From: Kaistia granuli DSM 23481
GTDB lineage: Bacteria > Pseudomonadota > Alphaproteobacteria > Rhizobiales > Kaistiaceae
NCBI RefSeq assembly: GCF_000380505.1
Contig: NZ_AQYH01000004.1
Span: 1 to 64,000, forward strand
Length of the DNA: 64,000 bases
Direction of reading: 5' to 3'
A program made the position numbers and the translations under genes. Every line of letters starts with the position of its first letter. Positions within the stretch are counted from its first letter, which is position 1. Under the pieces are notes generated by a model. That model was not told the origin of the DNA. It saw only the letters and a list, made by a program, of their open reading frames with translations, and searched no databases. Shown here one piece after another: positions 42,999 through 64,000 of the stretch.

Positions 42999-43099
42999 TC
43001 CAGCATTGGCGGGGCGAATCGGGGAAGCATTTCAGACGACGTGCCAGATGAGACTTGGCAAGCAGGCCTTGTCAATTCCTCTGCGCGAGGGGGGCGAAA

Positions 43100-43801
43100 A
43101 TGGGATCTCCATCAATTCGGGTGACGAACACCGAGCCCGGTGTGCGACCGCCCGTTTCGGGCGATGTCGATCTACGCTCGGTGCCGCGCGGCTATCCGCT
43201 CAAGCGGATCATCGACATCGGCATTGCGGGCTTTGCCATCCTCCTCCTGCTGCCGGTCGGCGTGATCATCGCCCTGTTGGTCGCAACGAGCGGTGGTCCC
43301 GTCTTCTATGTTGCCGACCGACGCGGCGCTGGCGGCCGTATCTTCCGGATGTACAAGTTCCGCACCATGGTTCCGGGCGCCGACGCCGTTCTTGACGCCT
43401 ATCTGCAGGGCGATCTGGAAGCGCGCCGCCAATACATGCGAACCTACAAGATCAAGGACGACCCGCGGATCACCGTGATGGGCGGGTTCCTGCGGCGGTT
43501 CAGTCTGGACGAGCTGCCGCAGCTGATCAACGTCGTGCGCGGCGACATGAGTCTCGTCGGCCCGCGTCCCCGGGGCGAGGTCGAATTCGCGGCCATGTCG
43601 GGCGATCGCCTGTTCGCGGCCTACTATCTTTGCCGTCCGGGCATGACCGGGCCTTGGCAGGTTTCGGGGCGGTCGGGGACGGACTACCAGACGCGCCTCG
43701 AACTCGATGCCGATTATGCGAGGGAGCTGAGCCTCGGTGGCGATCTGCTCATTCTCGCCAAGACGGTGCCTGTCGCCCTAGTCGGCACCGGGGCCTACTG
43801 A
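43100..43801 (+). CDS. ExoY-like polyprenyl-phosphate sugar-1-phosphate transferase
   Basis: Priming glycosyltransferase of 233 residues that loads the first sugar phosphate of a polysaccharide repeat onto undecaprenyl phosphate in the inner membrane. It has one N-terminal helix ([21 protein letters not shown], about 37-57), then MYKFRTM, the basic DDPRIT segment and the hallmark [21 protein letters not shown]. The short form with a single helix is ExoY-type rather than full-length WbaP. GAGGGGGG upstream supports the ATG at 43100. It is convergent with the glycosyltransferase operon at 43823-48376. Confidence 0.94.
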
Positions 43802-43822: not shown

Positions 43823-44932
43823 TCAACGCTTCTCCAGCAGCGCCTCGTAGAGCCTGGCATGCGCGGCCGAGCCGATGCTGCGCAGGTATCGTTCGGCCAC
43901 CAGCCGGCGTCCGTTCTGCGCGAGGCGGGCGTAGAGTTCCGTGTCGTCCAAAATCTCCCGGATCGCCGCCGCATAGTCGTTCGGGTCGAAGCCGTCGATC
44001 AGGCGGCCATGCTCGCCATCGGTCAGGATCTCGCGGGTGCCGCCAATCTTGGAGGCAATCACCGGCACTCCGAGATGCAGCGCCTCGATCGGGGCGATCG
44101 GCAGGCCCTCCCAGAGCGACGGCAGCACGAGCAGCCGCGCCGATCGAAGCGCCCGCAGCACCTCGCGGCGCGGCAGCGCGCCAACCCAGGTGATCCGGTC
44201 GCGCGCCGGGCTCGTGGCGATGCGGGCGCGCAGGGAGGCTTCCAGCGGGCCGCCTGCGATCATCAGCAGCCGGATGCCGGTTCCGGCGAGGCTCTCCAGG
44301 ATGTCGACCATGAAGAGCGGGTTCTTCTGCGGATGGGCGCGGCCGGCGAAGATCAGATCAAAACGCTCGGCGCCGGGCTCCATTTCGACGAAATCGGCGG
44401 GGTCGATGCCGTTTAGAATGCTGGAGGCCTTCGGTGCCGTCCGGGCCAGGATGGCTTCGCGGTCGGCGCGATCCCGGTCGCCTTCCGAGACGAAGATCAC
44501 CGCGTCGGCCCGCGCCGCGATGTGGCGCTCGGCGAGGCGGCCGAGCCAGCGCAGCGGTAGCATCTTGTTAGCATGGTGGTAGCCGTGCACGGTGTAGACG
44601 AGCGGCGCCGCGGCTGGAGACCCAAGGCCGGCCAGGGGCAGGCCGGCACGCGCGCCGTGGGCATGCACGATATCCGGTTGGAACCGCTCGATCTGCTTGG
44701 CGAGGCGGGGGCGCAGGCGCGGGTCCAGCCGCGCGGTGAAGAAGTCGAGTGCCGCCGTCCGGATGCCCTCCTGTTCGGCGCGCTCGAGGAGCGCCGATCC
44801 CGGCGCCGTCACCAGCGAGACGTCGAAGGCGCCGGTCGCGAGCAGGTCCCGGCAGAGACCGAGCACAGCGGTGCTGCCGCCACCGGGGCTGCCGTCGGGC
44901 AGGACGTGCAGGATGTGCCGCCGCCGGCTCAT
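43823..44932 (-). CDS. Glycosyltransferase family 4 protein
   Basis: GT-B enzyme of 369 residues. The N-terminal domain starts ILHVLPDGSPGGGSTAV, with the DIVHAHGARAG loop. The C-terminal nucleotide-sugar domain has FAGRAHPQKNP, PSLWEGLPIAPIEA (the conserved EGxPxxxxEA) and a GTREIL segment. It transfers a sugar to a lipid-linked intermediate on the cytoplasmic face. The start at 44932 overlaps the flippase stop by four bases. Last gene of a four-gene polysaccharide operon. Confidence 0.9.
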   Translation of the reverse strand: MSRRRHILHVLPDGSPGGGSTAVLGLCRDLLATGAFDVSLVTAPGSALLERAEQEGIRTAALDFFTARLDPRLRPRLAKQIERFQPDIVHAHGARAGLPLAGLGSPAAAPLVYTVHGYHHANKMLPLRWLGRLAERHIAARADAVIFVSEGDRDRADREAILARTAPKASSILNGIDPADFVEMEPGAERFDLIFAGRAHPQKNPLFMVDILESLAGTGIRLLMIAGGPLEASLRARIATSPARDRITWVGALPRREVLRALRSARLLVLPSLWEGLPIAPIEALHLGVPVIASKIGGTREILTDGEHGRLIDGFDPNDYAAAIREILDDTELYARLAQNGRRLVAERYLRSIGSAAHARLYEALLEKR

Positions 44933-46257
44933 GTCGTTGTCTCGGCGATCGCCGCATCGGGCTGACGGTGCCGAGCAAGGGCGACAATGCGGCTGGTGAG
45001 GAGCAGCAGCGCCGTCGCGATCATGGCGAGCGCCGTGCCGGTCAGGCCGAAGGCGCCGATCAGCCACAGGCTAAGGGCGACCGAGGCGACGCCGCCGCCG
45101 ATATTGATGATGGCGAGCGCACGATCCCGGCCGAGGCTGTACAGCCCGTAATTCACCGCGTCGGCCAGCAGGCGGATGATCATGGCGATCAGCATCAGGC
45201 CGAGCAGGGGGCCGTTGATCGGCGTTGCGGGCCCGAGCAGCCATGGCAGGCCGACGAGGGCGGCGGCCCAAACGAGGCTGGCCAGCACGACGGCCGCGAC
45301 GAGAACCCGGGCGGCCATCGAAGTCAGAGCGCGCCGCCAGCTTTCCACGCCGCCGTCGCGCCAGGCGGTGACCAGGGCAGGCAGAGACACCTGCACGATG
45401 GCGGCCGAGACGAGGACGTGCAGGGCATTGGCGATCGACCAGTGCAGGACGAAGACGCCGGCGGCGCCGAGATCGAGTTTGGCGTTGACGATATAGCGAT
45501 CGAGATAGGTCATGCCGACAAGGGCGAGGTCGTTCAGATAGATCAGCCATCCGCCCCGGATGCGGCGGCCGATCCAGCCGGCGTCGAGCGGGGACCGGAG
45601 GATGGCGGCGAGCGGCCAGCCGCGCAGGACGATCCAAAGGCCGGCTACATTGGCGGCGAGCGCCGCCAGCCAGCAGAGAAGCACGAAATCGAGCGTTCTC
45701 AGCGCCGGAAAGGCGATGCCGAGTAGCGCCGCCGGCACGACCCAGGCGCCGGAGCGGATCAGGAGCAGAAAATTGGCGGCGAGCGGCTTGCCGACGCTGA
45801 TCAGGGCGATGTGCAGATCGAAGGCGAAGGCTTCCAGCGCCAGGATCGCGGCGATCACCGGCAGCGGACCCGGCGATGTCACCAGGCCGGCGAATATCAG
45901 CGCGCCACAGGCGGCGCCCGCTACCGCCAGGCTGAAGAGGGTCAGGATCAGTCGGTCGCGCACCCGCCGCCCGGCCTCGAGACGGGGCAGGCCGACGATC
46001 TCGCGGCCGAGGAAATAGGTGACGCCCCATCCGAGCATCACCGGCGTCAGGCCCGCCGCGCCCTGGATCAGGCCGAACTGCCCGACCGCGTCGATGCCGA
46101 GATAGCGGGCGAGATAGATAAGGAGAGCCAGGCGCATGGCGAGGCCCATGCCGCGGATCGCCAGATTGGCGGTCGGCGCGAACAGGGGATGCCGGCCGAT
46201 GGCCCGTTGCTCCGGCAGGCCGGATGAGCCTCCTTGCCGGTGCCGGGGGCCGGTCAA
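44929..46257 (-). CDS. Polysaccharide flippase-like membrane protein (Wzx/MATE-like)
   Basis: Integral membrane protein of about 442 residues with 12 or more hydrophobic helices, of the polysaccharide biosynthesis (MviN/MOP) superfamily. It probably flips lipid-linked repeat units to the periplasm. The start is uncertain: a TTG at 46257 overlaps the upstream GT stop (TTGA), but the first ATG in frame lies about 36 codons further in, just before the helix beginning MRLALLIYLARYLG. GGAGG near 46233 fits neither exactly. It lies between two GT4 genes. Confidence 0.82.
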   Translation of the reverse strand: MTGPRHRQGGSSGLPEQRAIGRHPLFAPTANLAIRGMGLAMRLALLIYLARYLGIDAVGQFGLIQGAAGLTPVMLGWGVTYFLGREIVGLPRLEAGRRVRDRLILTLFSLAVAGAACGALIFAGLVTSPGPLPVIAAILALEAFAFDLHIALISVGKPLAANFLLLIRSGAWVVPAALLGIAFPALRTLDFVLLCWLAALAANVAGLWIVLRGWPLAAILRSPLDAGWIGRRIRGGWLIYLNDLALVGMTYLDRYIVNAKLDLGAAGVFVLHWSIANALHVLVSAAIVQVSLPALVTAWRDGGVESWRRALTSMAARVLVAAVVLASLVWAAALVGLPWLLGPATPINGPLLGLMLIAMIIRLLADAVNYGLYSLGRDRALAIINIGGGVASVALSLWLIGAFGLTGTALAMIATALLLLTSRIVALARHRQPDAAIAETTT

Positions 46258-47390
46258 TTCGGCTGGCCGGCGCCGAGGCCAGCGCGGCTCGCCTCGCCCG
46301 GCCGGGCCGGGCCGGCGATCTGGCATTCGAGTGTGGCGACGAGGATCGTCCAGTCCAGCGCGGCCGCCGCGGCGCGCCCGGCGTCGGCATGGCGGTGCCA
46401 CAGGTCGAGCGCTGCCTCCGCCGCCTCTGCCAGGGCAAGCGGCTCTGGCCGGGCAACCGCTCCGCAGCCGGCGGCGCGGACGATGTCCTTGGCGCCATTG
46501 CCGGGATCATCGGTGGTGACGACCGGCAGCCCGCTCGCCATCGCCTCGGCGACGACGCGGGGAAATCCCTCGCGCTGGCTGGTCAGCATCAGCAGGGCAT
46601 GCTCGGCCAGCAGCCGGATCTTGTCGTCGTCCGAAACGGCGCCGAGAAGGTCGATCGCGGCGCGGGCCGGCGAGGCGTCGATCCGCTGGCGGAGCTCGGC
46701 CAGCGCCGGGCCGTCGCCGGCGATGGTCAGCCGGTCAGGATAGCCGCGCTCCCGCAGGCATTCGAAGGCCGAGACGAGCAGCGGCAGGTTCTTGTGGGCG
46801 GTGATGCGGCCGAGCGACAGGATACCCCGGCGCAGCTGGCCGGGCGGTGCGCGATAGGCCTTGAGATCGAGGCCACTCGGCAGCACGAAGACGGGACGAC
46901 CGGAGGTTCGGCTGATCGCCGTCGCCACGCTATCGCTGATGGCGGCGTTGTGCGCCGTGGCACATGGCAGGAGGCGCTGGATCGCGGCATGGAAGCGGTC
47001 GCTGCGAACCTCGCACCAATGCAGCACGGCGCGTTGGCGCAACGCGCCCGGCAAGGTCACCGCGTGCAGCAGCGGCCATTGATTGAGGATGACGAGGTCA
47101 TAGTCGGCTTGCTGCAGGCGGCGCCGGGTCCAGAGCGCGTAGCGCAAGATGGCCGGCCAGCTCCGCCGCATCCAGGCGCGCGGCGGCGACGTATAGCGCG
47201 GCGCGACCGGGTGGCGGTGAACCCGGACGCCGTCCTGCTCTTCTTCTCCAGCGAGCCCGGCCGCATGGGCGACGCAGAACAAGTCGACCTCGTGGCCGCG
47301 CGCGGCGAGCGCCCGGCCGAGGCCGGCGAAGAACAGCTCCTGTCCGCCGAGGCTCGGCGGATACAGCTCGGTCAGGAGCGCGACGCGCAT
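46254..47390 (-). CDS. Glycosyltransferase family 4 protein
   Basis: GT-B enzyme of 378 residues with an N-terminal acceptor domain (LLTELYPPSLGGQELFFAGL) and a C-terminal donor domain (SLGRITAHKNLPLLVSAF, TSQREGFPRVVAEAMASGLPVV). The REGFPRVVAEA segment is the GT4 donor-binding motif. It starts within the stop of the epimerase gene (TGATG) and ends within the flippase start, so it is part of a tightly coupled operon for an extracellular polysaccharide. Confidence 0.91.
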   Translation of the reverse strand: MRVALLTELYPPSLGGQELFFAGLGRALAARGHEVDLFCVAHAAGLAGEEEQDGVRVHRHPVAPRYTSPPRAWMRRSWPAILRYALWTRRRLQQADYDLVILNQWPLLHAVTLPGALRQRAVLHWCEVRSDRFHAAIQRLLPCATAHNAAISDSVATAISRTSGRPVFVLPSGLDLKAYRAPPGQLRRGILSLGRITAHKNLPLLVSAFECLRERGYPDRLTIAGDGPALAELRQRIDASPARAAIDLLGAVSDDDKIRLLAEHALLMLTSQREGFPRVVAEAMASGLPVVTTDDPGNGAKDIVRAAGCGAVARPEPLALAEAAEAALDLWHRHADAGRAAAAALDWTILVATLECQIAGPARPGEASRAGLGAGQPN

Positions 47391-48376
47391 CAGCCGACGC
47401 CGGCCGGCTCGGCCGCTCTCCGAAGTAGATGCGGGCCGAAATCCGGTTCCTGCCAGAGATCGCGCAGGCCGTCGTCGAGTGTGCGGGCGGGCTGCCAGCC
47501 GAAGCGCTTGCGGATCCTGGAGATATCGGCGGCGAGAAAAGGCCGGTCGACGGCGCGGCTGCGTTCGGGATCGCGCGTGACCTCGAAATCAAAGCCGGCG
47601 ATCGCCCGCATCTTCTCGAGGATCTCGGCGACCGAATGGCAGTGCGAGGTGCCGAGATTGACGGGAAGCCATGTGCCGGGCGCCACCGCGCCGCCAAACG
47701 CCAGGGCGGCGAGGCCGGCGGCCGCGTCGTCGACATGGATATAGTCGCGCCTCGGCCAGAGATTGCCGAGTTGGACCTGCCGGCGCCCGGCCTTCAGCTG
47801 GCTGACGATCTCCGGCACCAGATGCGGGTTGGTCTCGCCGGGGCCGACGACGTTGAACAGCCGGACGGCGATCCCCACCAGGTTCCGGGCTGCGGCGAAA
47901 TGGGCGAGATATTGCTCGGCCTGCAGTTTGGTGAGGCCGTAGAGGTCGGTCGGCCCCAGCGCCGAGCGTTCCTCTACATGCGGGCGCGCGTCGGGGCGGT
48001 AGACGGCGCCGCTGCTGGCCAGAAGGAAGCGGCAGCCGGTCGGCGCCGTCCGCAACAGATTTACCGTGCCGGAAAGGTTCACGGCCAGCGCCCCGAGCGG
48101 ATCGCGGTCGCATTCCGGAATGAAGTGGATGGCGGCGAGATGGAGGATGATCTCGGGCATGAAGGTGTCGATGGCATGGGCCACGACGGCGGCGTCCCGG
48201 ATGTCGCCGCGCAGCAGCGTCATCTGTGCCTGTTCGGCGACGCTGAAACGCTGCGCGCCGAAATGGAGCGTGTCGAGGACGAGCAGGTCGTGCTCCGGCG
48301 CTAGCAGGCGCACCAGCGCCCTGCCGACAAAGCCCGAACCGCCCGTCACCAGAATCCGGCTGCGACGGCTTGCCAT
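47390..48376 (-). CDS. NAD-dependent epimerase/dehydratase (nucleotide-sugar)
   Basis: Extended SDR of 328 residues with GGSGFVG at 12-18, the SSGAVYR strand and catalytic Tyr146/Lys150 in YGLTK. RDYIHVDDAA fits the GDP/UDP-sugar binding region. It resembles GDP-6-deoxy-lyxo-4-hexulose reductase (Rmd-type) and GalE-like enzymes, but the exact product is not clear. It is the first gene of the minus-strand polysaccharide operon and probably makes a sugar donor for the two GT4 enzymes. Confidence 0.9.
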   Translation of the reverse strand: MASRRSRILVTGGSGFVGRALVRLLAPEHDLLVLDTLHFGAQRFSVAEQAQMTLLRGDIRDAAVVAHAIDTFMPEIILHLAAIHFIPECDRDPLGALAVNLSGTVNLLRTAPTGCRFLLASSGAVYRPDARPHVEERSALGPTDLYGLTKLQAEQYLAHFAAARNLVGIAVRLFNVVGPGETNPHLVPEIVSQLKAGRRQVQLGNLWPRRDYIHVDDAAAGLAALAFGGAVAPGTWLPVNLGTSHCHSVAEILEKMRAIAGFDFEVTRDPERSRAVDRPFLAADISRIRKRFGWQPARTLDDGLRDLWQEPDFGPHLLRRAAEPAGVG

Positions 48377-49821: not shown

Positions 49822-49839
49822 GTTATGTTATAACATAAC
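49822..49839. promoter_or_regulatory. Zur box: perfect 18-bp palindrome GTTATGTTATAACATAAC
   Basis: The perfect dyad matches the consensus of the zinc-uptake regulator Zur in alphaproteobacteria (around TGTTATAACA). It lies 14 bases before the start of a DUF4198 gene followed by a COG0523 GTPase, both known members of Zur regulons. Zinc-loaded Zur bound here should shut off the operon, so expression is expected under zinc limitation. Confidence 0.85.
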
Positions 49840-49853
49840 ATATGGAGCATCCG

Positions 49854-50585: not shown

Positions 50586-50644
50586 GGTGCCGGTGGCCGG
50601 GGCGGGGTGTCCCGGCCACTTTCGACGAACGCTTCATCACACGG

Positions 50645-51883: not shown

Positions 51884-51886
51884 ACG

Positions 51887-52216
51887 GTGCGGTTCCCCAA
51901 TCCCTTCGCGCCGCGCGAACCATCGCAGAACGCGGAGGCCGCGGCCCGCATCAAGGCGTGGACCCGGACGGCGCTCGGCCTCGACGAGGCGACGCGCGTC
52001 CTGGTGCACGAGATAGCCTGCGCGCGGCCAGGATGTGCGCCGCGCGAAACCGTGGTGCTGGTGGTGCCGGCCGAGGCGCCGCCGTTCCGGATCGCCCTGC
52101 ACAAGTCGATGCGGGATCTGACCGAGGCCGAACTCGCCAGGGTCTGGCGGGCCCGGTCTTCGGCGATCGACGGGGAAGGGCCGCCCGGCGACGGGCGGCC
52201 GGCTTCGTCGGACTAG
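51887..52216 (+). CDS. Small conserved protein with CARPGC motif, COG0523-linked
   Basis: The 109-residue protein starts at GTG three bases after the GTPase stop. The middle part (EIACARPGCAPRETVVLVV, then FRIALHKSMRDLTEAEL) has a pair of cysteines four residues apart. From memory, similar small proteins with the pattern C-x4-C-x-x-x-E-T lie next to COG0523 GTPases in other proteobacteria, but no function is established. It could be a metal-binding partner of the GTPase. The C-terminal 20 residues are low complexity and overlap the convergent gene by 4 bases. Confidence 0.75.
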   Translation: MRFPNPFAPREPSQNAEAAARIKAWTRTALGLDEATRVLVHEIACARPGCAPRETVVLVVPAEAPPFRIALHKSMRDLTEAELARVWRARSSAIDGEGPPGDGRPASSD

Positions 52217-52932
52217 ATGCTCTCGGGCGGCGTGGCGGACGCCGTCTGGCTCTGGTTGCTGTCGAGGACGACGACCTTCGAACCGGCGGGAACGCGGTTG
52301 TAGAGGTCGAGGATGTCCTGGTTCATCAGCCGGATGCAGCCGGACGAGACGGCCTGGCCGATCGACCAAGGCTGGTTGGTCCCATGGATGCGGTAGAGCG
52401 TGTCCTGGCCGTTGTTGAACAGATACAGCGCGCGGGCGCCGAGCGGATTTTCCGGGCCGCTCTCCATGCCGTTCGCCCATTTGGCGTTGCGCTCGGGGTC
52501 GCGCTTAATCATGTCCTGCGTCGGCGTCCAGCGCGGCCATTCGCGCTTGTACTGGACGGTCGCCGCGCCGGTGAATTCGAGGCCGGCCTTGCCGACGCCG
52601 ACGCCGTAGCGCATCGCCTGGCCGTTTTCCTGGACGAGATAGAGGAAGCGGTTGGCCGGATCGACGACGATGGTGCCGGGCTGCTCGCCGGTCGGGTCCT
52701 TGACGACCTGGCGCATGTAGCGCGGCTTCAGGTGCTTCAGGTCGACGGCCGGAATCGGGAACTTGTCGTCATCGACCGCCGCGTAGCGGCTGACGGTGGC
52801 CGGGTCGAGACGCGGCGGCGCCTCGGCGACCGGGCCGGTGGTGGCGCAGGCGGTCACGACCGGCAGGAGCAGCAACAGGGCGGGGATGTTCAGTCGGCGC
52901 GCCAGGCGCGACGGTTGGGGGGAAAGCGACAT
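52213..52932 (-). CDS. L,D-transpeptidase (ErfK/YbiS/YcfS/YnhG family)
   Basis: Lipoprotein-like enzyme of 239 residues with a hydrophobic N-terminus and lipobox VTAC (Cys29). The YkuD domain spans about 85-225, with His183 in HGTNQPWS and the catalytic Cys199 in SSGCIRL. It forms 3-3 peptidoglycan cross-links or attaches proteins to peptidoglycan in the periplasm. The start is placed at MSLSPQPS rather than nine codons upstream. It is convergent with the zinc operon and downstream of the dsb genes. Such enzymes need a reduced cysteine, which fits a thiol-reducing neighbour. Confidence 0.92.
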   Translation of the reverse strand: MSLSPQPSRLARRLNIPALLLLLPVVTACATTGPVAEAPPRLDPATVSRYAAVDDDKFPIPAVDLKHLKPRYMRQVVKDPTGEQPGTIVVDPANRFLYLVQENGQAMRYGVGVGKAGLEFTGAATVQYKREWPRWTPTQDMIKRDPERNAKWANGMESGPENPLGARALYLFNNGQDTLYRIHGTNQPWSIGQAVSSGCIRLMNQDILDLYNRVPAGSKVVVLDSNQSQTASATPPESI

Positions 52933-52982
52933 GGCGCTTCTTTCTGCTGGGATGGGCATGGGCGAAGGAGGATGGACTTCGA

Positions 52983-53603
52983 TTATTCGGCCTGACGCGC
53001 GCGGGCGTCGGCGACGACCTGCTTGAAGCCGGCATAATCGAGCGTGGTGGTGCGGAACGGCCCGACCAGATAGGTCGGCGTTCCGGTCAGTCCCAGCGAA
53101 TCCGCCTGGGCGAGATTGCGCTGGAGGAGGGCGGTGATCTTCGGGCCGTGGGCGTCGAGATCGGCTTCCAGGCGGGTCATGTCGATGCCGGCGGCCTTCA
53201 TGGCCTTGAGCATGGACTGCTGGTCCGCCTTGCGGCCGGAGATCCCCATCAAGGCGTGATGGGCCTTCTCGTAGCCGCCCTGGTACTTGGCGCCGAGCGC
53301 CAGCTGGGCGCCGAGAATGGAGGACTCGCTGAGGATCGGCCAGTCCTTGTAGACAAGGCGGATCTTGCCGTCTTCCTTGACGACGCGCTCGAGGTCCGGC
53401 GCCGACTTCTTGCAGTAGATGCAGTTGTAGTCGAGATAGGCGACGATGGTGACGTCGCCCTTCGGATTGCCGCCGACCGGGGCCTCGGGATCGTTGAGGA
53501 TCGCATTGACGTCAACCTGCTGCGCCCAGGCTGGGCTGGCCAGCAACGGGGTGACGGCAAGGGCGGCGGTGCTCAAGGCGATAAAGTCGCGACGGTTCAT
53601 CAT
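52983..53603 (-). CDS. DsbA-like thiol:disulfide oxidoreductase
   Basis: Periplasmic thioredoxin-fold protein of 206 residues. The N-terminus NRRDFIALS followed by a hydrophobic stretch looks like a signal peptide of Tat type, probably cut after WAQ. The active site is C61-I-Y-C64 in DYNCIYCKK, and the cis-proline loop is TGTPTY. The family (Com1/BdbD-like) oxidises or isomerises disulfides. It lies 33 bases downstream of a DsbD-like gene, so it may be kept reduced by it, as in the Scs system. Upstream AAGGA supports the start. Confidence 0.9.
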   Translation of the reverse strand: MMNRRDFIALSTAALAVTPLLASPAWAQQVDVNAILNDPEAPVGGNPKGDVTIVAYLDYNCIYCKKSAPDLERVVKEDGKIRLVYKDWPILSESSILGAQLALGAKYQGGYEKAHHALMGISGRKADQQSMLKAMKAAGIDMTRLEADLDAHGPKITALLQRNLAQADSLGLTGTPTYLVGPFRTTTLDYAGFKQVVADARARQAE

Positions 53604-53636
53604 GGTATTCCTTATAGCGATGGGATGAGGCGAAGT

Positions 53637-55541
53637 TCAGATGCCTGCGCGTCCCAGATTGCTTCCAAACGCCGCAGTCGTGATCGCCCCGATGCTGCGT
53701 GTGCCCTCGATCTCGCGGCCGGTCGCCGGGTCGATCAGCAGCATTGTCGGCGGCCCGACGACGTCGAAACGCTGCATCAGCGCCTGCGTGTCCGGGGTGG
53801 TTTCGGTGACGTCGGCGACGATCACCGAGGCGCGGGCGAGGCGGGCCACGATCGCCGGATCGCGGAACACGGTGCGGTCATGCGTCTTGCAGACCGTGCA
53901 CCATTCGGCCGTGAAGGAGACGAAGATCGGCTGGCCCTGCTGGCGGGCGCCGGCGATGGCGGCGTCCATGGCGGCCGGCGAATTGACGCGGATCGCGGTC
54001 TCGGCCGCGATCGCCGCCGGTGCCGCCCGGCCTTCGGTCAGGAAGGCGAGCGGGCGCAACGGGTCGCTGGCGCCGGCGCTGGCGCCGATGATCAGCACCG
54101 CGCCATAGACGAGCGCGGCGAAGCCGAGCGTCTTGCGCGGGTGGTCCAGGAAGGGGCGGACCGGCTCCGATGGTGTGGCGGCGGTGAAGGCGACGCCGGT
54201 GCCGATCGCCAGCAGCGCCCAGAGCGCGAGCGTGAGTGAACCGGGCATGACGCGGCCGGCCATCTCGATGGCAAGCCCGAGGAAGACGATGCCGAAGATC
54301 CCCTTGATGCGGCCGAGCCACGGGCCGGCGCGCGGCAGGATCCGGGCGCCGAAGGTGCCAACGGCGATCAGCGGCAGCCCCATGCCGAGGCCGAGCGCGA
54401 ACAGTGCGCCGGCGCCGCGCCCGACATCGCCGGTCTGCGACACATAGAGAAGGGCGACGGCGAGCGGCGGCGTCACGCAGGGGCCGACGATCAGCGCCGA
54501 TCCGAAGCCGAGCAGGGCGGCGCCGGCCAGCGAGCCGCCGGAGCCGGCCGTGGCCGGCTGGAGGAAACGCCCGAGGAAGGCCGGCGCCTGCAATTCGTAG
54601 AGGCCGAACATCGACAGGGCGAGCGCGACGAGGACGACGCTCATCAGGCCGAGCGCCCAGGGCGTCTGCAGTGCCGCCTGCAGGTTCTGGCCGGACCAGG
54701 CCGCGACGACGCCGAGCAGCGCATAGGCTGCCGCCATCGCCAGCACGTAGGCGAGCGACAGCGAGAAGCCGCGCCGCGCCGACGTTCCCGCGCCGGAGCG
54801 GGCGATGATCCCGGAAAGGATCGGGATCATCGGGAAGACGCAGGGCGTCAGGGCCAGCAGCAGGCCGAAGCCTAGAAAGGCGGCGATCATCATGGCCGGA
54901 TTGCCGGCCATCAGCGAACTGGCGGTCGCCGGCGTCGCGATATCGGGCATGGCCGTCGCGATCGGGGCGCTCGCGGCAGCGGAGGCCGCCGGCTCGTCCT
55001 CGGCGACGATTGCGGCCGCGTCGAGCTTCGGCATGGCCAGGCTGAGCGCCGGACCAGCGGCGCTGACCGCGAGCGTCGCGAGGTCGACGGTCCTGTGGGT
55101 TGGCGGATAGCAGATGCCGGCTTCGGCGCAGCCCTGGAAGGTGACGGTCAGGGACGGACCGGTGCCGAGATCCGCCGCCGCAATGCGCGCCTCGGCCTTG
55201 CCGTAATAGACCTCAGTCGGGCCGAAATTCGGATCGTCCTTCATCTCGCCGGCCGGCGTCACGGCGACGAGCGTCGCGCCGCCCGCGTCGCGGACGCCGA
55301 TTTTGTCGCGATAGAGATAATTGCCGTCGGCGATGGTCCAGGCGAGACGGAGATCCCCGCCGGCGTCGCGGCTGGCGGCGAGATTGAATATGGCGTCGGC
55401 GCGCGGCGGCGATTGCGCGCCGGCGGGCAGGGCGGCTAGGACGATCAGCGCGGCGAGCGCCAGCACGCGCAGGACGGCGCGCCGGATCGACGGGAAAGGC
55501 AACTGGCAGGGGTTCACGATATTCGTCATGGACCCACCCAT
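53637..55541 (-). CDS. DsbD-like thiol:disulfide interchange protein
   Basis: Inner-membrane electron carrier of 634 residues. After a signal peptide comes the N-terminal DsbD alpha domain with GCAEAGICYPP. Next is an Ala-rich linker, then eight helices with the cysteines in ALTPCVFPMIPILSGI and ALIVGPCVTPPLA. A C-terminal thioredoxin domain has EWCTVCKTHD. It moves electrons from cytoplasmic thioredoxin to periplasmic partners, here probably the DsbA-like protein downstream. The start may be 55541 or four codons later at 55529. Divergent from the two-component genes. Confidence 0.92.
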   Translation of the reverse strand: MGGSMTNIVNPCQLPFPSIRRAVLRVLALAALIVLAALPAGAQSPPRADAIFNLAASRDAGGDLRLAWTIADGNYLYRDKIGVRDAGGATLVAVTPAGEMKDDPNFGPTEVYYGKAEARIAAADLGTGPSLTVTFQGCAEAGICYPPTHRTVDLATLAVSAAGPALSLAMPKLDAAAIVAEDEPAASAAASAPIATAMPDIATPATASSLMAGNPAMMIAAFLGFGLLLALTPCVFPMIPILSGIIARSGAGTSARRGFSLSLAYVLAMAAAYALLGVVAAWSGQNLQAALQTPWALGLMSVVLVALALSMFGLYELQAPAFLGRFLQPATAGSGGSLAGAALLGFGSALIVGPCVTPPLAVALLYVSQTGDVGRGAGALFALGLGMGLPLIAVGTFGARILPRAGPWLGRIKGIFGIVFLGLAIEMAGRVMPGSLTLALWALLAIGTGVAFTAATPSEPVRPFLDHPRKTLGFAALVYGAVLIIGASAGASDPLRPLAFLTEGRAAPAAIAAETAIRVNSPAAMDAAIAGARQQGQPIFVSFTAEWCTVCKTHDRTVFRDPAIVARLARASVIVADVTETTPDTQALMQRFDVVGPPTMLLIDPATGREIEGTRSIGAITTAAFGSNLGRAGI

Positions 55542-55602: not shown

Positions 55603-56265
55603 ATGCGCATTCTGGTGGTCGAGGATGATCCGATCCTGGCGGACGGGCTGAAGGTCGGGCTGGGGCTCGCCGGCGCCACGGCCGATCTGGTCGGCAGCTG
55701 CGGGGACGCACGCTCGGCCCTGGCGGCGCATGACTTCGACGCCGTCGTGCTCGACGTGATGCTGCCGGATGGCTCCGGCCTCGAGGTGCTCAAGGAAATG
55801 CGCGGCGCGGGCGATCGTACCCCGGTGCTGCTCTTGACCGCGCTCGACGAGGTTTCCGATCGCATCCGCGGGCTGGATGGCGGCGCCGACGACTATCTGA
55901 GCAAGCCCTTCGACCTCGACGAGCTGGCGGCCCGGATCCGTGCCATCGCGCGCCGTGCCAGCGGGCGGGCGGCGCCGCTACTGGTGGCGGGCGATCTGGT
56001 GCTCGATCCGGCCTCGATGTCGGCCGCGCAGGACGGGGCGGAGATCCCGCTGTCGCGGCGCGAATTCGCGGTGCTGTCGCTGCTGATGGAGCGGCCGGGC
56101 ATCATCCGCTCCAAGGGCGAGATCGAGGATCGCCTCTATGGCTGGCACGAGGAAGTCGAGAGCAACGCGGTGGAAGTGCATGTCCATAATCTCAGGGCCA
56201 AGATCGGCCGCACCGCCATCGAGACCGTGCGCGGCCTCGGCTACCGGATGAGGGATGCGGGATGA
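55603..56265 (+). CDS. OmpR-family response regulator (QseB/PmrA-like)
   Basis: The 220-residue regulator has a receiver domain with acidic residues Glu7/Asp8/Asp9, phosphorylation site Asp51 (VVLDVMLPDG), Thr79 (LLLTALD) and Lys near 101 (LSKPFD). A C-terminal winged helix covers about 125-220 (LSRREFAVLSLLMERPG, VHVHNLRAKIG). The start MRILVVEDD is certain. The histidine kinase gene starts within its stop codon. The PmrA-type box upstream suggests autoregulation and control of dsbD. Confidence 0.95.
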   Translation: MRILVVEDDPILADGLKVGLGLAGATADLVGSCGDARSALAAHDFDAVVLDVMLPDGSGLEVLKEMRGAGDRTPVLLLTALDEVSDRIRGLDGGADDYLSKPFDLDELAARIRAIARRASGRAAPLLVAGDLVLDPASMSAAQDGAEIPLSRREFAVLSLLMERPGIIRSKGEIEDRLYGWHEEVESNAVEVHVHNLRAKIGRTAIETVRGLGYRMRDAG

Positions 56266-57802: not shown

Positions 57803-59287
57803 ATGAACGACGTCTCGCATGACATCGGAAAAGCCAATGGGGCATCCGGCGATGCCGGTCCCTGGCCGATGGCGTTCGCCATTCTGGTGAAGACGCTCCG
57901 GCGCTGGATCTGGATCATCCTGGCGGCTGGAATCGTCTTCGGCCTTCTGGCCGTGGTCGCCAAGTCGCTGATGCCGCAGCGCTATACGGCGACAGCGCAG
58001 TTCCTGCTCGATCCGCGCGGCCTGCCGATCTTCCCGGGCGATCTCTCGGTCGCCCAGTTCGACGCCAACAGCCAGATCGGCGTGGTCGAGAGCCAGATGC
58101 GGATCATCACCTCCGAGCGGGTGCTCTCCAAGGTCCTCGCCGACGAGGCTCTGATGGACGCGCTGATGCCGCGCGACGGCGGCGAGGGTACCGCGCCAGC
58201 GGATCCGATGCCGCTGCGCCCCAGCCTCGACGTCAGCGGCAACAAGGCCGCGGCGCTGACCGTCCTGCAGCGCGCGATCTCCGTGCAGCGGGCCGAGCGC
58301 AGCTTCGTCATCGACGTCACGGCGACGGCGCGCACGCCGGTTCTGGCGGCCGAACTCGCCAATGCCGTGGTCAAGGCCTATCTCGAGGAAGACGCAGCCA
58401 ATCGCGGCGAGGCGGCCAAGCGCCTCACCGATGAACTGACCGGCCGCCTGGAGACGCTGCGCCAGCGCCTGCGCGATTCCGAGGCCAAGGCCAACAGCTT
58501 CCGTATCGAAAGCGGCCTGATCAGCACGGGCGACCGCCTGGTCGTCGAGCAGAAGCTCGCCGAGGCCGTCACCGAACTGAGCGCGGCGCAGCTGCGGCTC
58601 GATCAGGCGACGTCGCGGGCGGCGCAGCTCGATTCCGCCCAGCGCGATCTCGGCATGCTCGGCGCCAATGACGACATGCGTTCGCTGACGCCGCTGATCG
58701 AACGGCAGAACGCGGCGCGCGAGAATATCGCGGTGCTGGCGGCGCGCCTCGGCGATCGCCATCCGGCGTTGAGCGAGGCCCGCGATCGCCTCGAAGAGAT
58801 CGGCCGGCGCATCGACGTCGAGCTCGGCTGGATCAAGCAGGCGGCGCAGGCCGATCTGGAGCGGGCGCGGACGACGCAGCAGGCACTGTCGCGCTCGGTC
58901 GCCACGTTCTCCGACCAGGTTGCCAAGACGCAGCAGGCGAAGCTCGAAATGCGGGCGTTGGAGCAGGAAGTCGAAACCAACAGGACGCTGCTGGAATCCT
59001 TCAAGACGCGTGCCCTGCAGGTCGGCGAGTTCGGTCGCATCGATCCCGGCGCGGTCCGCATCGTCTCGGTGGCGCAGCCGCCGCCGGAACGTCGAGGGCT
59101 CAAGGGCCTGGTGCTCTGGGGCGCGTTCGGCGCCGTCATGGGCATGATCCTCGCCGCCGCGTTCGCCACCTTCAAGGCCATGCTGTCCATCGGCGCCGCG
59201 ATGTCTCGCGGCGCTGCCTCGGCCGGCGCCCGCCCGCACGCGACGCGGGAGCGTGCCGCGTCCGAGGGGGTGGCATTGCCATCCTGA
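57803..59287 (+). CDS. Polysaccharide chain-length/export protein (Wzz/GumC-like)
   Basis: The 494-residue protein has a Wzz domain with a first helix near 37-55 (WIWIILAAGIVFGLLAVVAK). A long periplasmic coiled-coil covers about 200-420 (RLETLRQRLRDSEAKANSF, EIGRRIDVELGWIKQAAQ). The PPPERRG segment, as in PPxxPxxP motifs, precedes a second helix near 440-460. A tyrosine-kinase domain is absent, so it is a GumC/ExoP-N-type co-polymerase. The 200-bp gap before it shows no gene. Confidence 0.88.
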   Translation: MNDVSHDIGKANGASGDAGPWPMAFAILVKTLRRWIWIILAAGIVFGLLAVVAKSLMPQRYTATAQFLLDPRGLPIFPGDLSVAQFDANSQIGVVESQMRIITSERVLSKVLADEALMDALMPRDGGEGTAPADPMPLRPSLDVSGNKAAALTVLQRAISVQRAERSFVIDVTATARTPVLAAELANAVVKAYLEEDAANRGEAAKRLTDELTGRLETLRQRLRDSEAKANSFRIESGLISTGDRLVVEQKLAEAVTELSAAQLRLDQATSRAAQLDSAQRDLGMLGANDDMRSLTPLIERQNAARENIAVLAARLGDRHPALSEARDRLEEIGRRIDVELGWIKQAAQADLERARTTQQALSRSVATFSDQVAKTQQAKLEMRALEQEVETNRTLLESFKTRALQVGEFGRIDPGAVRIVSVAQPPPERRGLKGLVLWGAFGAVMGMILAAAFATFKAMLSIGAAMSRGAASAGARPHATRERAASEGVALPS

Positions 59288-59332: not shown

Positions 59333-60802
59333 ATGAAACCGGCGAGATCCCCGCGCCTGCTTGGCTGGATCGGTTGGGCCGGCGCCGACGCGATGGGCCG
59401 GCTGGCGCTGCTGACCGGCAGCACGATCATCCTGTCACGCATGCTGACGCCGCACGATTTCGGCATCAGCGCGCTGGTACTGACCATCGTCGCCGTGGCG
59501 TCGGTCTGTGTCGGCGCTCCGTTCGAGGAGGCGCTGGCGCAAAGGCGGTCGCTGCGGCGGTCGCATCTCGGTGCCGCGCTCGCCCTGTCCTGGCTGGTCG
59601 GCCTCGTCCTGCTCGTGCTTTCGGTGGCCGGCGGCTATTGGCTCGGCCATCTCTATGGCGAGCCGCAGATGCGGACCCTGCTGCCGGTCGCCATGCTGTC
59701 GGTCTTCTTCAGCGGCCATTCCGACATTGCGACGGCGCTGGCGCGCCGGCTGCACCGCTTCAACGATGTCGCGATGGCGACGCTCGCAGGGCATGCGATT
59801 GGCATCGCGCTGGCGCTTGCCATCGCCTTTGCCGGCGGCGGGGTCTGGGCGCTGATCGCCCAGCGCCTGCTCGTCGTCGTCGCCCGCGCCTTCATCCTGC
59901 AATGGCGGCTGGGCTTCCTGATCCTGCCGCGCTGGTCGATGTCGCATCTCGGCCATATCGGCCGGTTCGCCCGCATCTCCTTCTTCGACCGGCTGGCCGA
60001 CAACCTGACCTATCTCGCCTTCAACAACATCGTCGGCATGCTCTACGGCGTCACCGTGCTCGGCTATGTCAACATGGCGATGCGGCTGATCGAACCGATT
60101 CGCGGCGCCATCATCGCCACCTCGCACAATCTCGCCTTCTCCTATTTCGCCGGCGCGAGCGACCATCCCGTCCGCCTGCGCGAGCGGGTCGAGCCCGTCG
60201 TCGCCAATGCCGCCTTCGTCATCGCGCCGCTCTTCGCCGGCCTTGCTGCCGTGACCCCGATCCTGCTGCCGATCGTCGCCGGTCCCGGCTGGGACGGCGC
60301 GATCAACATCGCCATCTGCCTCGCTGCCGGCGCGGCGATCGTGCTGCCGGCGCGGCTGGTCTATACGGCGCTCTCCGCCAGCGCCCGGCCGGAATTCAGC
60401 CTGATCGGCGCTTTGGCGAGCTTCGGCTCCACGCTCGTCATCCTCGTCGCCGCGAGCCCGCTCGGGCCGATCAGCGTCGGCGTATCTCGCTTCGTCGGCG
60501 ACAGCGTCCAGGCCGGCTTCGCCATCAGCTTGCAGTCGCGCCATCTCGCCTGGTCGCGCTTCGAGCGCCTCGGCTCCCTGCTGCCGGCATGGTTCCTCTC
60601 CGGCGCCATGGGTCTGGTCGTCGCCGGCGCCGGGTACGGGCTTGCCGGCATCAACCGTCCGCTGGCGCTCCTGCTGTCGGTGGCGCTCGGCGTCGCCGTC
60701 TATGCCGGGCTGCTCGCTGTCTTCGCCCGGCCCGCTCTGCGCAACCTGCTGGCCGTCGTGCGTCCCGGCCGGCGGACCGGAACCATCAAGCTGGAATCCT
60801 GA
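59333..60802 (+). CDS. Lipid-linked oligosaccharide flippase (WzxC-like)
   Basis: Integral membrane protein of 489 residues with about 14 hydrophobic segments, of the polysaccharide_synt_3 group (DAMGRLALLTGSTIILSRML near the N-terminus, RISFFDRLADNLTYLAFN in the middle). It probably flips repeat units for the polymer controlled by the chain-length protein 45 bases upstream. No strong ribosome-binding site is seen before the ATG. A second flippase is encoded at 44929-46257, so the strain may make two polymers. Confidence 0.9.
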   Translation: MKPARSPRLLGWIGWAGADAMGRLALLTGSTIILSRMLTPHDFGISALVLTIVAVASVCVGAPFEEALAQRRSLRRSHLGAALALSWLVGLVLLVLSVAGGYWLGHLYGEPQMRTLLPVAMLSVFFSGHSDIATALARRLHRFNDVAMATLAGHAIGIALALAIAFAGGGVWALIAQRLLVVVARAFILQWRLGFLILPRWSMSHLGHIGRFARISFFDRLADNLTYLAFNNIVGMLYGVTVLGYVNMAMRLIEPIRGAIIATSHNLAFSYFAGASDHPVRLRERVEPVVANAAFVIAPLFAGLAAVTPILLPIVAGPGWDGAINIAICLAAGAAIVLPARLVYTALSASARPEFSLIGALASFGSTLVILVAASPLGPISVGVSRFVGDSVQAGFAISLQSRHLAWSRFERLGSLLPAWFLSGAMGLVVAGAGYGLAGINRPLALLLSVALGVAVYAGLLAVFARPALRNLLAVVRPGRRTGTIKLES

Positions 60803-60804
60803 CC

Positions 60805-61806
60805 ATGTCCGCCTCGTCTCCGCGCGATCGCGCTGTCCTCGTCACCGGTGCCGCCGGTTTCATCGGTCAGGTGGTGACGCGCGACCTGGCAGCGGCCGGC
60901 TTCGCGGTACGGGCCGGAACGCGTCGGAACGCCGCCCCGCTGCCGGAGGGCGCCGTCGCCATGCGCTGCGACCTGGCCGATCCGGCCGCGACGCGCGCCG
61001 CCGTCGCCGGCACCAGCGTCGTCGTCCATGCGGCCTATGGCGATTCGGCCTCGATGGTCGCCGAATGCCGCGTCCTGCTCGCGGCGATGAGCGCGGCCAA
61101 GGTGCCCTGCCTGATCTATTTCAGCTCGATCGCCGTTTATGGCGAGCGGACGGGCGTGGTCGACGAGACGATGCCGGCGGCTGGCGCGCCGGGCGGCTAT
61201 GGTGACGCCAAGATCGCCTGCGAGGCCTTCGTGCGCGCCTGGGCGCAGGATCCGGCCGCGCCGGAGCGCCGGGTTCTGATCCTGCGGCCGGGCATCGTCT
61301 ATGGCACCGGCAGCGTGTTCTGGACGGACAAGCTGGCCGAGCGAATCCGGGCTCGCGCCTGGGGCCATTTCGGCCCGTCCGGCGCCGGCCCGGCGGCGCT
61401 GGTGCATGTCGATGACATCGGCGAACTGGTGGCGACCGCCGCGCGCTGGCTGGCGCTGGTGCCGTCCGAATGGCCGCCGGTAACGGCGCTCAATGTGGTC
61501 GGCCCGGAAACGCCGAGCTGGAACGACTATTTCGCGGCCCTGGCGAAGCGGATTGGCGTGCCGTTGCGGCCGCTCGGCGGTGTGAGGCTGTCGCTCCGCC
61601 AGGCACTCGCCGTGCCGGGCAAGGTCGCGCGCAAGCTGCGGCTGCCGCTGTTCCGTCGCGCCGCGCTGGCGCCGACCCGACCCGAGATGGCGATCTTCGC
61701 GCGGGACGTGCGCTACGACACGACGGCGATCCGCGCGCGCGGGCTGGCGCCGCGCACCGGTCTGGCGGAAGGCCTTGCCCGCACCACTTTCAAGCCGACG
61801 CGCTGA
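60805..61806 (+). CDS. NAD-dependent epimerase/dehydratase
   Basis: Extended SDR of 333 residues with GAAGFIG at 15-21, SSIAVYG, and catalytic Tyr132/Lys136 in YGDAK. The start at 60805 lies two bases after the flippase stop, so translation is probably coupled. The C-terminal part (LFRRAALAPTRPE) is basic. It probably modifies a nucleotide sugar for the adjacent polysaccharide. The substrate is not evident. It converges with the GH44 gene with only 4 bases between. Confidence 0.87.
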   Translation: MSASSPRDRAVLVTGAAGFIGQVVTRDLAAAGFAVRAGTRRNAAPLPEGAVAMRCDLADPAATRAAVAGTSVVVHAAYGDSASMVAECRVLLAAMSAAKVPCLIYFSSIAVYGERTGVVDETMPAAGAPGGYGDAKIACEAFVRAWAQDPAAPERRVLILRPGIVYGTGSVFWTDKLAERIRARAWGHFGPSGAGPAALVHVDDIGELVATAARWLALVPSEWPPVTALNVVGPETPSWNDYFAALAKRIGVPLRPLGGVRLSLRQALAVPGKVARKLRLPLFRRAALAPTRPEMAIFARDVRYDTTAIRARGLAPRTGLAEGLARTTFKPTR

Positions 61807-61810
61807 CGCC

Positions 61811-63460
61811 TCAGGCGAAAGCGAAACGACGCGCCGAGCGCGCGGGCAGGTCTATCTGCCAGCCGTTATCGACCTGGCGGGCGCCCGCGTCGAGGCCGAT
61901 CGCCTGGGGGTGGGCGTCATCGAAACCGAACGCGGCGACGAGCGGCCGGGCGCCGCCGGTCTCGAAGCTCACATCGATCGTCGCGGCGGCGTCCGATTTG
62001 TTGATCACGACGAGATGCAGGCCCGTCTGGCCGGTCGCGCCGGCGGCATAGGCGACCAGGTCCGCGCCGCCGCCCGCGATCGTAACCTCGAGCGATTGAT
62101 CGCCGAAGCGTTGTCCGCCGGCGTCGGCCGCGCGATAGAGCCGGTAGGCCTCTCCGAGCCAGCCCTCAAGACTGCCCCAATGGCTGGCGAAGACGACGTC
62201 GTGGCGGCCGAACCGGCCGAGCACGTCGGCCAGCGCAAGGCCGGAGGCGAGTTGGCCGGCGCCGCCATAGTTGAACTCGGTGATCGCGAGCGCCGTGCCT
62301 GGGAAGGTCGCGGCGATGATGGCCTCGAGGCTAGGCAGCAGCGGCAGGCCGAGCTGGGCCTCGCCCGAAAATGCCGGCAGGGCGCGCGGCACCCAGCTTT
62401 CCTCCCGGAAACCGGGCTCGGTCAGCGTGCGGGGCGCCTCGAGCAGCGCCGCCGCCAGCGCCGGATTCTCGGTACGGAACAGGTCGCCGGAATTGCTGTA
62501 GGGGTACCAGTGCACGTCCAGCGCGTCGAGCAGGCGGATGCCGTCCTGCTCCGAGGCCTGGCGGAAGGCGTCGAGATAGGCGGCGACGAAGCTGCCGTGA
62601 TGGCGGTAGTCGTTCCAGTCCGGCGCATCCTGGAAGCTCGCCATCTCGGTAGCGCCCCAGCTCACCGGGCCAAAGACGAGGGCGGCCGGGTCGGCGCGCT
62701 TGATGGCGCGCGCGGCCGCCAGCGAGCGCTCGAGGAAGGCGCGGATCGTCGGCTTGCCGGCGACGATGCGCGGGTGGGTCTCGAACCAGAGCCCCGGTTC
62801 GTTGTCGAGTGCATAGGCGTAGATGCCGCGCTCGCTGTCCGCGCCGCCATAGGTCTCGACCAGGCGCGCGAGCAGCTGCGGGATATCGGCGACGGCCGGC
62901 ACGATCGGGTCGCCGGCCTTCGTGCCGGCTGTCCACTGGATCGGCACGAAGCGCGGCGAGGGCGCGGCGGCCTCAGGCGGTACGGGGCCGTCGAAATCGG
63001 CGGCGACGGAACCGGCGAGCGGCACGGTGACGAGGCTCTTGGCGCCCATGGCCAGCGAGGCCTCGTGCATCGCCTCGATCAGCAGGGCGGGCTTGGTCCA
63101 TTCCGTCTTCGGCAGGCCCAGCGCGTCGAGCAGGAACGGGCCGTTGGCGTGCTGGTAGTCCTTGCCGGCATTGGCGGCGTTGTTGACCCAATTGTAGGTC
63201 GTCATCAGATTGCCGCCGAGCCGGCGCGCCGTGACACCGGCGGCGCGGTCGAGTTCGGCGGAGGGCGCGCCGCCATCCATCGTGCCGATCTCGTTGGAGC
63301 CGTAGATTAACGGGCTGATCGGCCGGCCCGGTCCGCCGTCCGCGACGCGCAGGCTCCACTTTGCGCCGGACTGCGCCATCGCGGGGAGACCGCCGAGGGC
63401 GAGACCGCCGGCAGCTAGGCCGGCGCCGAGTACGGCGCGGCGGGTGGGGCGGCGATTCAC
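61811..63460 (-). CDS. Tat-exported glycoside hydrolase family 44 protein
   Basis: The 549-residue protein starts at GTG 63460, overlapping the upstream GT stop (GTGA). The N-terminus RRPTRRAVLGAG plus a hydrophobic stretch ending PAMAQ is a Tat signal. GH44 features in order: ISPLIYGSNE, RRLGGNLMTTYNWVNNAANAG, DNEP with the likely acid Glu221, LDVHWYP at 314-320, LAITEFNYGG with the likely nucleophile Glu395, and ADVLGRFG. Known GH44 enzymes cut beta-1,4-glucans and xyloglucan. Here it lies in a polysaccharide locus, so it may trim the cell's own polymer. No cellulose-binding module is present. Confidence 0.88.
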   Translation of the reverse strand: MNRRPTRRAVLGAGLAAGGLALGGLPAMAQSGAKWSLRVADGGPGRPISPLIYGSNEIGTMDGGAPSAELDRAAGVTARRLGGNLMTTYNWVNNAANAGKDYQHANGPFLLDALGLPKTEWTKPALLIEAMHEASLAMGAKSLVTVPLAGSVAADFDGPVPPEAAAPSPRFVPIQWTAGTKAGDPIVPAVADIPQLLARLVETYGGADSERGIYAYALDNEPGLWFETHPRIVAGKPTIRAFLERSLAAARAIKRADPAALVFGPVSWGATEMASFQDAPDWNDYRHHGSFVAAYLDAFRQASEQDGIRLLDALDVHWYPYSNSGDLFRTENPALAAALLEAPRTLTEPGFREESWVPRALPAFSGEAQLGLPLLPSLEAIIAATFPGTALAITEFNYGGAGQLASGLALADVLGRFGRHDVVFASHWGSLEGWLGEAYRLYRAADAGGQRFGDQSLEVTIAGGGADLVAYAAGATGQTGLHLVVINKSDAAATIDVSFETGGARPLVAAFGFDDAHPQAIGLDAGARQVDNGWQIDLPARSARRFAFA

Positions 63461-64000
63461 GAAACGAGACCCGAGCCGTAGAGGGCAGGGCGGCTGCGCA
63501 TCCACAGCAGCTTGCCGAGCCCGCCATGGAGCTTGACCCGCGCCTTCTCGGCGCGGATCGGATCGATCGGCGTGAAGACGAGCGCTGTCAGGCCGTGCAG
63601 CACGATCTGGATCGCGCCGGCCGCCATCCAGAAGCCGATGCGCGTCCATTCGACCGGGCGCGCCTTCCAGTGGGTGAGGACGCGGATCTGGCCCGAGAGG
63701 AACTTGCGCTTGCGCACATAGGCCCAGTTCAGCCGTCGTTCCGGCACCCATTCCGTCACGATGCCGCCTGCCGACCAGGCAAAGCGCTTGCCTTCCTCGA
63801 CCAACCGCTTCAGCAGCAGCGTATCCTCGCCGCCGATCTCGTTCATGCTGGTGTCGAAGGGCTGCTCGAGGGCGAGGCAGGCCGCGCGGTTGAACATCGA
63901 ATTGTTGGTGCCGAGATAGGCGGCGCGCGCGGTGATGTCGGCGCCGTCCGGCAGATCGAGCCAGCGCGAAAAATACGGCGCGAGCGGTCCGATCGGCTTG
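63457..64000 (-). CDS. Glycosyltransferase family 2 protein, C-terminal part (5' end outside window)
   Basis: The frame is open from the window edge to a stop at 63457-63459, giving about 180 residues. GTNNSMFNR, the acid pair in GGEDTLLLKRL (the catalytic-base region of GT2 enzymes), and a basic WAYVRKRKF segment precede a hydrophobic helix (WMAAGAIQIVLHGLTALVF). It probably adds a sugar to the lipid-linked polysaccharide repeat. Its stop overlaps the GH44 start by 4 bases, so synthesis and hydrolase are co-expressed. Confidence 0.85.
   Translation of the reverse strand, partial: KPIGPLAPYFSRWLDLPDGADITARAAYLGTNNSMFNRAACLALEQPFDTSMNEIGGEDTLLLKRLVEEGKRFAWSAGGIVTEWVPERRLNWAYVRKRKFLSGQIRVLTHWKARPVEWTRIGFWMAAGAIQIVLHGLTALVFTPIDPIRAEKARVKLHGGLGKLLWMRSRPALYGSGLVS

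Follow-up and report, generated by a model that had tools for sequence, protein, structure and literature searches.

A GH44 gene in a polysaccharide locus of Kaistia granuli

The window, that is, the whole stretch of DNA analysed here, comprises positions 1 to 64,000 of a 373-kb contig (contig 4) in the 4.77-Mb genome of Kaistia granuli. The genes and features of the locus within it are as follows, with the strand in brackets.

43055..43801 (+), initiating hexose-1-phosphate transferase (PHPT); PF02397, E 1.6e-55
43823..45067 (-), second GT4 glycosyltransferase; PF00534, E 1.6e-33
46254..47390 (-), GT4 glycosyltransferase; PF00534, E 9.9e-28; in two other Kaistia genomes a relative lies beside Wzz and the counterpart of the epimerase gene of the next entry
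47390..48376 (-), epimerase-family protein; PF01370, E 4.1e-44; a relative adjoins Wzz in two other Kaistia genomes
55603..56265 (+), response regulator adjoining the locus, membership uncertain; PF00072, PF00486
56262..57602 (+), sensor histidine kinase adjoining the locus, membership uncertain; PF02518 and others
57803..59287 (+), Wzz-type chain-length protein; PF02706, E 3.4e-10
59333..60802 (+), Wzx-type flippase; PF13440, E 9.2e-48
60799..61806 (+), NAD-dependent epimerase/dehydratase-like protein (SDR); PF01370, E 2.4e-18
61811..63460 (-), GH44 glycoside hydrolase of 549 aa, GTG start, no CBM found; PF12891, PDB relatives and fold match
62276..62278 (-), Glu395, predicted nucleophile (TEFNYGG); codon checked; kept in 33/33 GH44 rows
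62798..62800 (-), Glu221, predicted acid/base (NEPGLW); codon checked; kept in 33/33 GH44 rows
63371..63460 (-), N-terminal export signal with twin arginine (residues 7-8, 63437-63442), read by eye; probable cleavage after AMA
63457..64000, on to contig position 64386 (-), GT2 glycosyltransferase (GT2a); PF00535, E 8.3e-28

As the original prediction had it, GH44 shares 4 bases with a GT2 gene: GT2a ends at 63457, and the bases GTGA belong to both. At its other end, the GH44 stop lies 4 bases from the end of the convergent SDR gene, and GH44 was likewise correctly described as facing a chain-length, flippase and epimerase set, namely Wzz, Wzx and SDR on the other strand. Past the window, the contig encodes a protein of the Wzy/O-antigen-ligase family PF04932, another GT2, a protein with DUF6492 and an oxidoreductase of the Gfo/Idh type. 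The DUF6492 gene overlaps the oxidoreductase gene (contig 66975-69154, L002 5975-8154).

It was found that the PHPT, Wzx, Wzy and Wzz-type genes by which a Wzx/Wzy-dependent pathway is recognized are all present in the locus, the Wzy call being made from PF04932, a family that also includes ligases, and the PHPT gene lying 14 kb from Wzz. In the NCBIfam scan the initiating transferase was WbaP/EPS_sugtrans-like, with scores under the cut-offs of those profiles. No Wza was found on contig 4, the three Poly_export matches of the genome being on contigs 3 and 20; WecG also had no match on contig 4, and the single WecG-type match of the genome was on contig 1. The polysaccharide gene set seems to be split in two in K. 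granuli, since in two other Kaistia genomes the counterparts of its GT4-epimerase pair are neighbours of Wzz. The two parts adjoin in L042 and L043. In K. granuli they are parted by 48980-55541 of the window, which encodes outer-membrane-type, CobW-like, L,D-transpeptidase-like, DsbA-like and DsbD-like proteins (named by eye).

Properties of the predicted enzyme

The assignment of 61811-63460 (-) to GH44, already made in the original prediction, was borne out by profile, relatives and fold. PF12891 matched with an E value of 2e-42 (146.1 bits against a cut-off of 25.1) and was the sole Pfam match at E ≤ 0.01; in agreement with the prediction that a binding module is lacking, the Pfam scan of the 549-aa protein found no CBM. 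Seven distinct PDB sequences matched the protein, under the names Cel44C/xyloglucanase, endoglucanase and cellulase, the best being the Paenibacillus polymyxa enzyme (1.2e-93, residues 43-517). An AlphaFold model was obtained with a pLDDT of 78.7 and a pTM of 0.84. When the PDB was searched with this model, ranks 1-8 were occupied by Cel44A, Xgh44 and the Clostridium acetobutylicum GH44 enzyme (TMq 0.81-0.82), and ranks 9-10 by CelM2 (TMq 0.70-0.71), which we take to be GH44 as well. Residues 1-30, 59-65 and 84-101 were of low confidence, the last of these near the active site, and for this reason no statement is made about the shape of the cleft. The nearest named relative found was Kaistia adipata DSM 17808, with a GH44 82% identical in the best segment.

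From what is known of the GH44 family, we assume that Glu221 in the NEP motif acts as acid/base and Glu395 in the TE motif as nucleophile. As both residues are kept in every one of the 33 GH44 proteins aligned, the forms linked to EPS (exopolysaccharide) loci look active. The leader of the K. granuli protein, read by eye as VNRRPTRRAVLGAGLAAGG..., contains the RR pair, and an RR leader before a hydrophobic stretch was seen by eye in 15 of the 15 proteins of clade A (defined below), being Tat-type by motif. The predicted Tat leader was upheld on this reading of the sequence. The kept twin-arginine leader and the intact catalytic residues would fit an exported endoglycosidase.

GH44 enzymes are best known for plant-fibre digestion, and the closest solved relatives of the protein are a xyloglucanase and endoglucanases. 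It could accordingly be an ordinary secreted plant-polysaccharide endoglucanase or xyloglucanase that stands in the locus by chance or by hitch-hiking. Two ABC permease genes ~11-13 kb away on the same contig would agree with this, as would the cellulolytic isolate of K. adipata reported in an excerpt of PMC3317674.

Gene order in clade A loci

Clade A comprises 15 distinct loci: seven from Kaistia, G389, G101, G060, G254, Ancylobacter gelatini (L012), G324 (L013/L037), Rhodoblastus (L014) and an Azospirillaceae MAG (L015). Because ORF calling picked some shadow ORFs in this GC-rich DNA, the neighbourhoods were read by tblastn with mostly Pfam-checked proteins, a procedure that divergent versions can escape. 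At least one of Wzx, Wzy and Wzz was observed near GH44, within the fetched stretch, in 14 of the 15 loci. In G324 only Wzy of these three was seen beside GH44, and in Rhodoblastus only Wzx. The exception was L015, where no EPS genes were found in the stretch; five neighbours scanned there gave sulfotransferase, biotin carboxylase, chemotaxis and DctP matches, and one had no match.

The order Wzz-Wzx-SDR, reversed GH44-GT2a and forward Wzy was found in six of the seven Kaistia loci as well as in G060 and G254; the seventh Kaistia locus, L010, is cut by a contig end before Wzx. Only the GH44-GT2a, Wzy half is visible in G101. In G389, the locus of which carries a linked Wza, the Wzx-Wzz pair is inverted with GH44 still within the set. 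The Ancylobacter locus is reshuffled, with GT2a moved away and GH44 between Wzx and Wzz. Where GT2a adjoins GH44, the 4-base overlap of the GT2a stop with the in-frame GH44 start was seen in 9 of 11 loci (all seven Kaistia, G101 and G060), while in G254 the two genes touch as TGATG and in G389 they are apart.

Distribution of GH44 and co-occurrence with Wzy

GH44 was found to be rare, being present in 11 of 397 genomes of the order, in 3 of 385 of the class and in 4 of 398 of the phylum (own genome counted in the latter two), and in none of 14 control genomes. Within the family it occurred in 7 of 28 genomes, all 7 belonging to the 14 genomes of the own genus. In these same seven Kaistia genomes a close Wzy was present, at 70-75% identity where it was not the query itself. 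Of the seven Kaistia genomes lacking GH44, four had only a 30-32% Wzy match and three had none.

The search of the order with Wzy gave some match in 114 of 397 genomes. These were split by a gap: 11 genomes had matches of ≥45% identity over most of the protein and ≥306 bits, and the rest reached at most 174 bits and 36%. With the threshold for a close Wzy (≥45% identity) chosen once this gap had been seen, GH44 was present in 10 of the 11 order genomes with a close Wzy, one genome having Wzy alone (G286) and one GH44 alone (G224) (n = 397), related genomes being non-independent draws in this count. Of the 12 GH44 genomes searched, 9 had a PF13440 flippase at most 10 kb from GH44, a count subject to the same non-independence. 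These nine were the clade A and clade B genomes included (clade B is described below), one of them (G1114) with a match below the Pfam cut-off, and in G224, G720 and G900 no such flippase was found near GH44. For comparison, the K. granuli genome has four flippase matches in 4.77 Mb, and a random place in it would be ≤10 kb from one in ~1.7% of cases.

In G286, two genome searches did not find GH44. Its Wzz, Wzx, SDR, GT2a and Wzy are in the usual order, forming the same locus minus GH44, and only ~20 bases separate the matched parts of SDR and GT2a at the place of GH44 (L086 8270-8290). As this locus is intact without GH44, the pathway can do without the enzyme.

This dispensability, together with the export leader and with the suspicion, voiced in an excerpt of PMC11340318, that hydrolases of such loci modify the matrix, might suggest that GH44 acts outside the cell on the finished polymer, in matrix loosening, dispersal or recycling, and not during synthesis. 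Two observations make that improbable in our judgement: the overlap with a glycosyltransferase gene suggests that the enzyme is needed in step with synthesis, and among the subset of neighbouring proteins scanned there was no outer-membrane secretion gene.

G286 also provides a natural comparison strain for what GH44 does. Replacement of GH44 by another hydrolase was considered for this genome and rejected, no GH being present among the four proteins scanned (a WecG-type GT, a tRNA pseudouridine synthase, a formyl transferase and an MFS transporter). Likewise, two f17 genomes with the more distant Wzy had no hydrolase near it among six proteins scanned, which matched PHPT, Wza, Wzz or PilZ or had no match.

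A second GH44 clade in EPS loci

G446 encodes a distant GH44 (27% identical) in an EPS locus together with ManC, Wzz, DUF6492, WecG, Wzx, PHPT and SDR. In a search of the whole family of G446, GH44 was present in 7 of 55 genomes (clade B). In each of these seven, GH44 comes directly after a Wzy-like gene and directly before Wzx, the Wzy-like call being made from a PF04932 match of 23 bits, under the cut-off of 31.7. Matches to Wza, Wzz, WecG and PHPT each occurred in six of the seven stretches; the seventh is cut near the gene by a contig end. The clade B leaders appeared by eye to be mostly ordinary Sec signals. Two tandem WecG-type glycosyltransferase matches were seen at the edge of one clade B locus (G1114, L103 1968-3721). 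DUF6492, encoded near GH44 in K. granuli, recurs in the distant clade B loci (L047), which suggests a possible glycan-related role in EPS loci.

Synthesis of an O-antigen or another lipid-linked glycan, with GH44 trimming or recycling lipid-linked oligosaccharides, would be in line with the membership of the K. granuli polymerase-like protein in the O-antigen ligase family PF04932 and with the lack of a linked Wza. Against this, Wza is encoded in the related G389 locus and in six of the seven clade B stretches, and GH44 enzymes are generally known for endo-cleavage of long glucans; we regard such a role as very improbable.

In the GH44 tree (33 rows, midpoint root, EpsB itself absent, L011 left out as the same record as G017), clade A stood beside the Bacteroidota GH44, and clade B among those of G720, G224, G900 and a Paenibacillus plasmid. 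Support was 100/100 for the split between these halves, 100/98 for the EPS-linked part of clade A and 93/100 for clade B. The long branches of the Paenibacillus plasmid and G900 leave the deep joins unsure. With thin sampling and a midpoint root, the simplest reading of this tree would be that GH44 was recruited into EPS loci twice.

The GH44 proteins outside clades A and B are those of G224, G720, G900, seven Bacteroidota and one Paenibacillus plasmid. In the searches made, on partly annotated stretches, none had such polysaccharide-gene neighbours. The G224 enzyme carries CBM2 and PKD and adjoins AAA, DUF58, VWA and potassium-transporter genes; three Bacteroidota proteins scanned had secretion tails and CBM30 matches, two of the three above cut-off. 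Compared with these, the lack of a CBM in K. granuli speaks against an ordinary plant-polysaccharide enzyme, although this absence alone is weak evidence because the unlinked GH44 of G720 and G900 also had no CBM match. The G720 protein (L046 8950-10641) is 53-56% identical to clade B; no EPS gene was found near it in L046 and no PF13440 flippase anywhere in that genome. Also against such an enzyme are the placement, which is kept across families and recurs in the separate clade B, and the tight co-occurrence with one Wzy type. Chance placement was rejected as the main reading on account of the conserved placement in the clade A loci and in 7/7 clade B genomes, and we hold the plant-polysaccharide reading as a whole to be unlikely.

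Proposed function

The original prediction had tied GH44 to the polysaccharide synthesis of the cell itself. Judged from genome sequences, this link is well supported by conserved placement, Wzy co-occurrence and the second clade in EPS loci. The prediction is in this way borne out in part, its β-glucan-like polymer, the cleavage of it and the periplasmic site of action being proposals. We therefore consider it probable that the K. granuli enzyme serves the polymer of its own locus. It is likely that GH44 regularly accompanies one type of Wzx/Wzy locus for surface polysaccharide as an accessory enzyme, an endoglycosidase with a Tat-type leader that would set chain length or clear export.

The initiating transferase and the glycosyltransferases would assemble repeat units on a lipid carrier, to be flipped by Wzx and polymerized by Wzy under the control of Wzz. 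Translation of GH44 is probably coupled to that of GT2a, as the observed 4-base overlap suggests. GH44 would then cut the polymer, or stalled or mis-sized chains, presumably in the periplasm or during export, at a β-glucosidic bond of the kind that GH44 enzymes recognize, by which chain length may be set or the export path kept clear. It would thus work like EpsB of Myxococcus xanthus, PslG and PrmQ.

Several points count against a role on the own polymer. Clade A keeps the active-site motifs of the plant-glucan enzymes, and the case is weakened by these motifs, by the exceptions G286 and L015, and by the report in the excerpt of PMC3317674 noted above. Also to be counted are the absence of linked Wza and WecG in K. 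granuli and the loci with a single component, Wzy in G324 and Wzx in Rhodoblastus. A bolder version can be offered only tentatively and is rather doubtful: that GH44 was recruited at least twice from glucan degraders into Wzx/Wzy EPS loci, once as clade A with its Tat-type leader and one Wzy and once on the clade B/EpsB side, and that it cuts the own polymer at β-1,4-glucosyl bonds, which would predict a cellulose-like segment in that polymer.

The genome comparison indicates that the link between GH44 and EPS is conserved on two separate GH44 branches, and GH44 in alphaproteobacteria should not be taken as a sign of plant-biomass degradation. The locus offers a genetically simple case for the effect of a hydrolase on chain length and export, and the linkage of the polymer might be guessed from its enzyme.

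Comparison with known systems

Xgh44/Cel44C of P. polymyxa and Cel44A of Clostridium thermocellum share the catalytic and C-terminal domains with the K. granuli protein, with 33-35% identity in the structural match and TM of 0.81-0.82. To our knowledge they are secreted plant-glucan enzymes with neither an EPS locus context nor a Tat leader. GH44 was named solely as a degradative enzyme in excerpts of PMC12211065 and PMC4138018, and within the open-licence PMC literature no paper was found that ties an alphaproteobacterial GH44 to an EPS locus in its title or abstract.

The original prediction regarded the role as not usual for the family. This is weakened by EpsB (MXAN_7450) of M. xanthus, which it overlooked. 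EpsB is listed as a glycosyl hydrolase in an excerpt of PMC2129111 and corresponds to NCBIfam NF041873, 'GH44 family glycoside hydrolase EpsB'. Like the K. granuli protein, it is GH44 (by its NCBIfam name) and encoded in a Wzx/Wzy EPS locus. NF041873 was also the GH44 match in our NCBIfam scans. The K. granuli protein, which has a Tat-type leader (by eye), scored 172.1 bits against an equivalog cut-off of 1250 and was on this score rejected as an EpsB ortholog. Three clade A proteins scored 164-182 bits and the GH44 of the clade B side 269-306; this difference suggests that EpsB falls on the clade B side of the family. The non-EPS, CBM-bearing GH44 of G224 reached 295 bits, compared with 286-306 for the clade B proteins scored. 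As it scores as high as EPS-linked GH44, NF041873 does not mark EPS function, and matches below its cut-off say nothing on this point.

PslG, encoded in the psl locus of Pseudomonas aeruginosa, has been shown to be a retaining endo-β-glucosidase (excerpt of PMC11912335). It is thus an endoglycosidase of an EPS locus, as proposed for the K. granuli enzyme, but belongs to GH39, whereas the K. granuli protein matched GH44 alone. PrmQ of the Sphingomonas promonan locus resembles the K. granuli protein in being a glycoside hydrolase with a predicted export signal, encoded beside Wzx and Wzy genes in the EPS locus of an alphaproteobacterium, and differs in belonging to GH16 rather than GH44. According to the same excerpt of PMC11340318, deletion of PrmQ led to rugose colonies, and deletion of prmN (GH10) in the same locus had no effect on colony form, from which it follows that a hydrolase in an EPS locus need not matter; the hydrolases of such loci were suspected there to modify the matrix, accommodating growth and division.

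The concept of a polysaccharide-locus hydrolase is already known from EpsB, PslG and PrmQ. New, as far as our searches show, are clade A, the Tat-type leader of its proteins and its association with a single type of Wzy. The K. granuli enzyme and its relatives widen the set of such hydrolases, in which EpsB was the only other GH44 member found.
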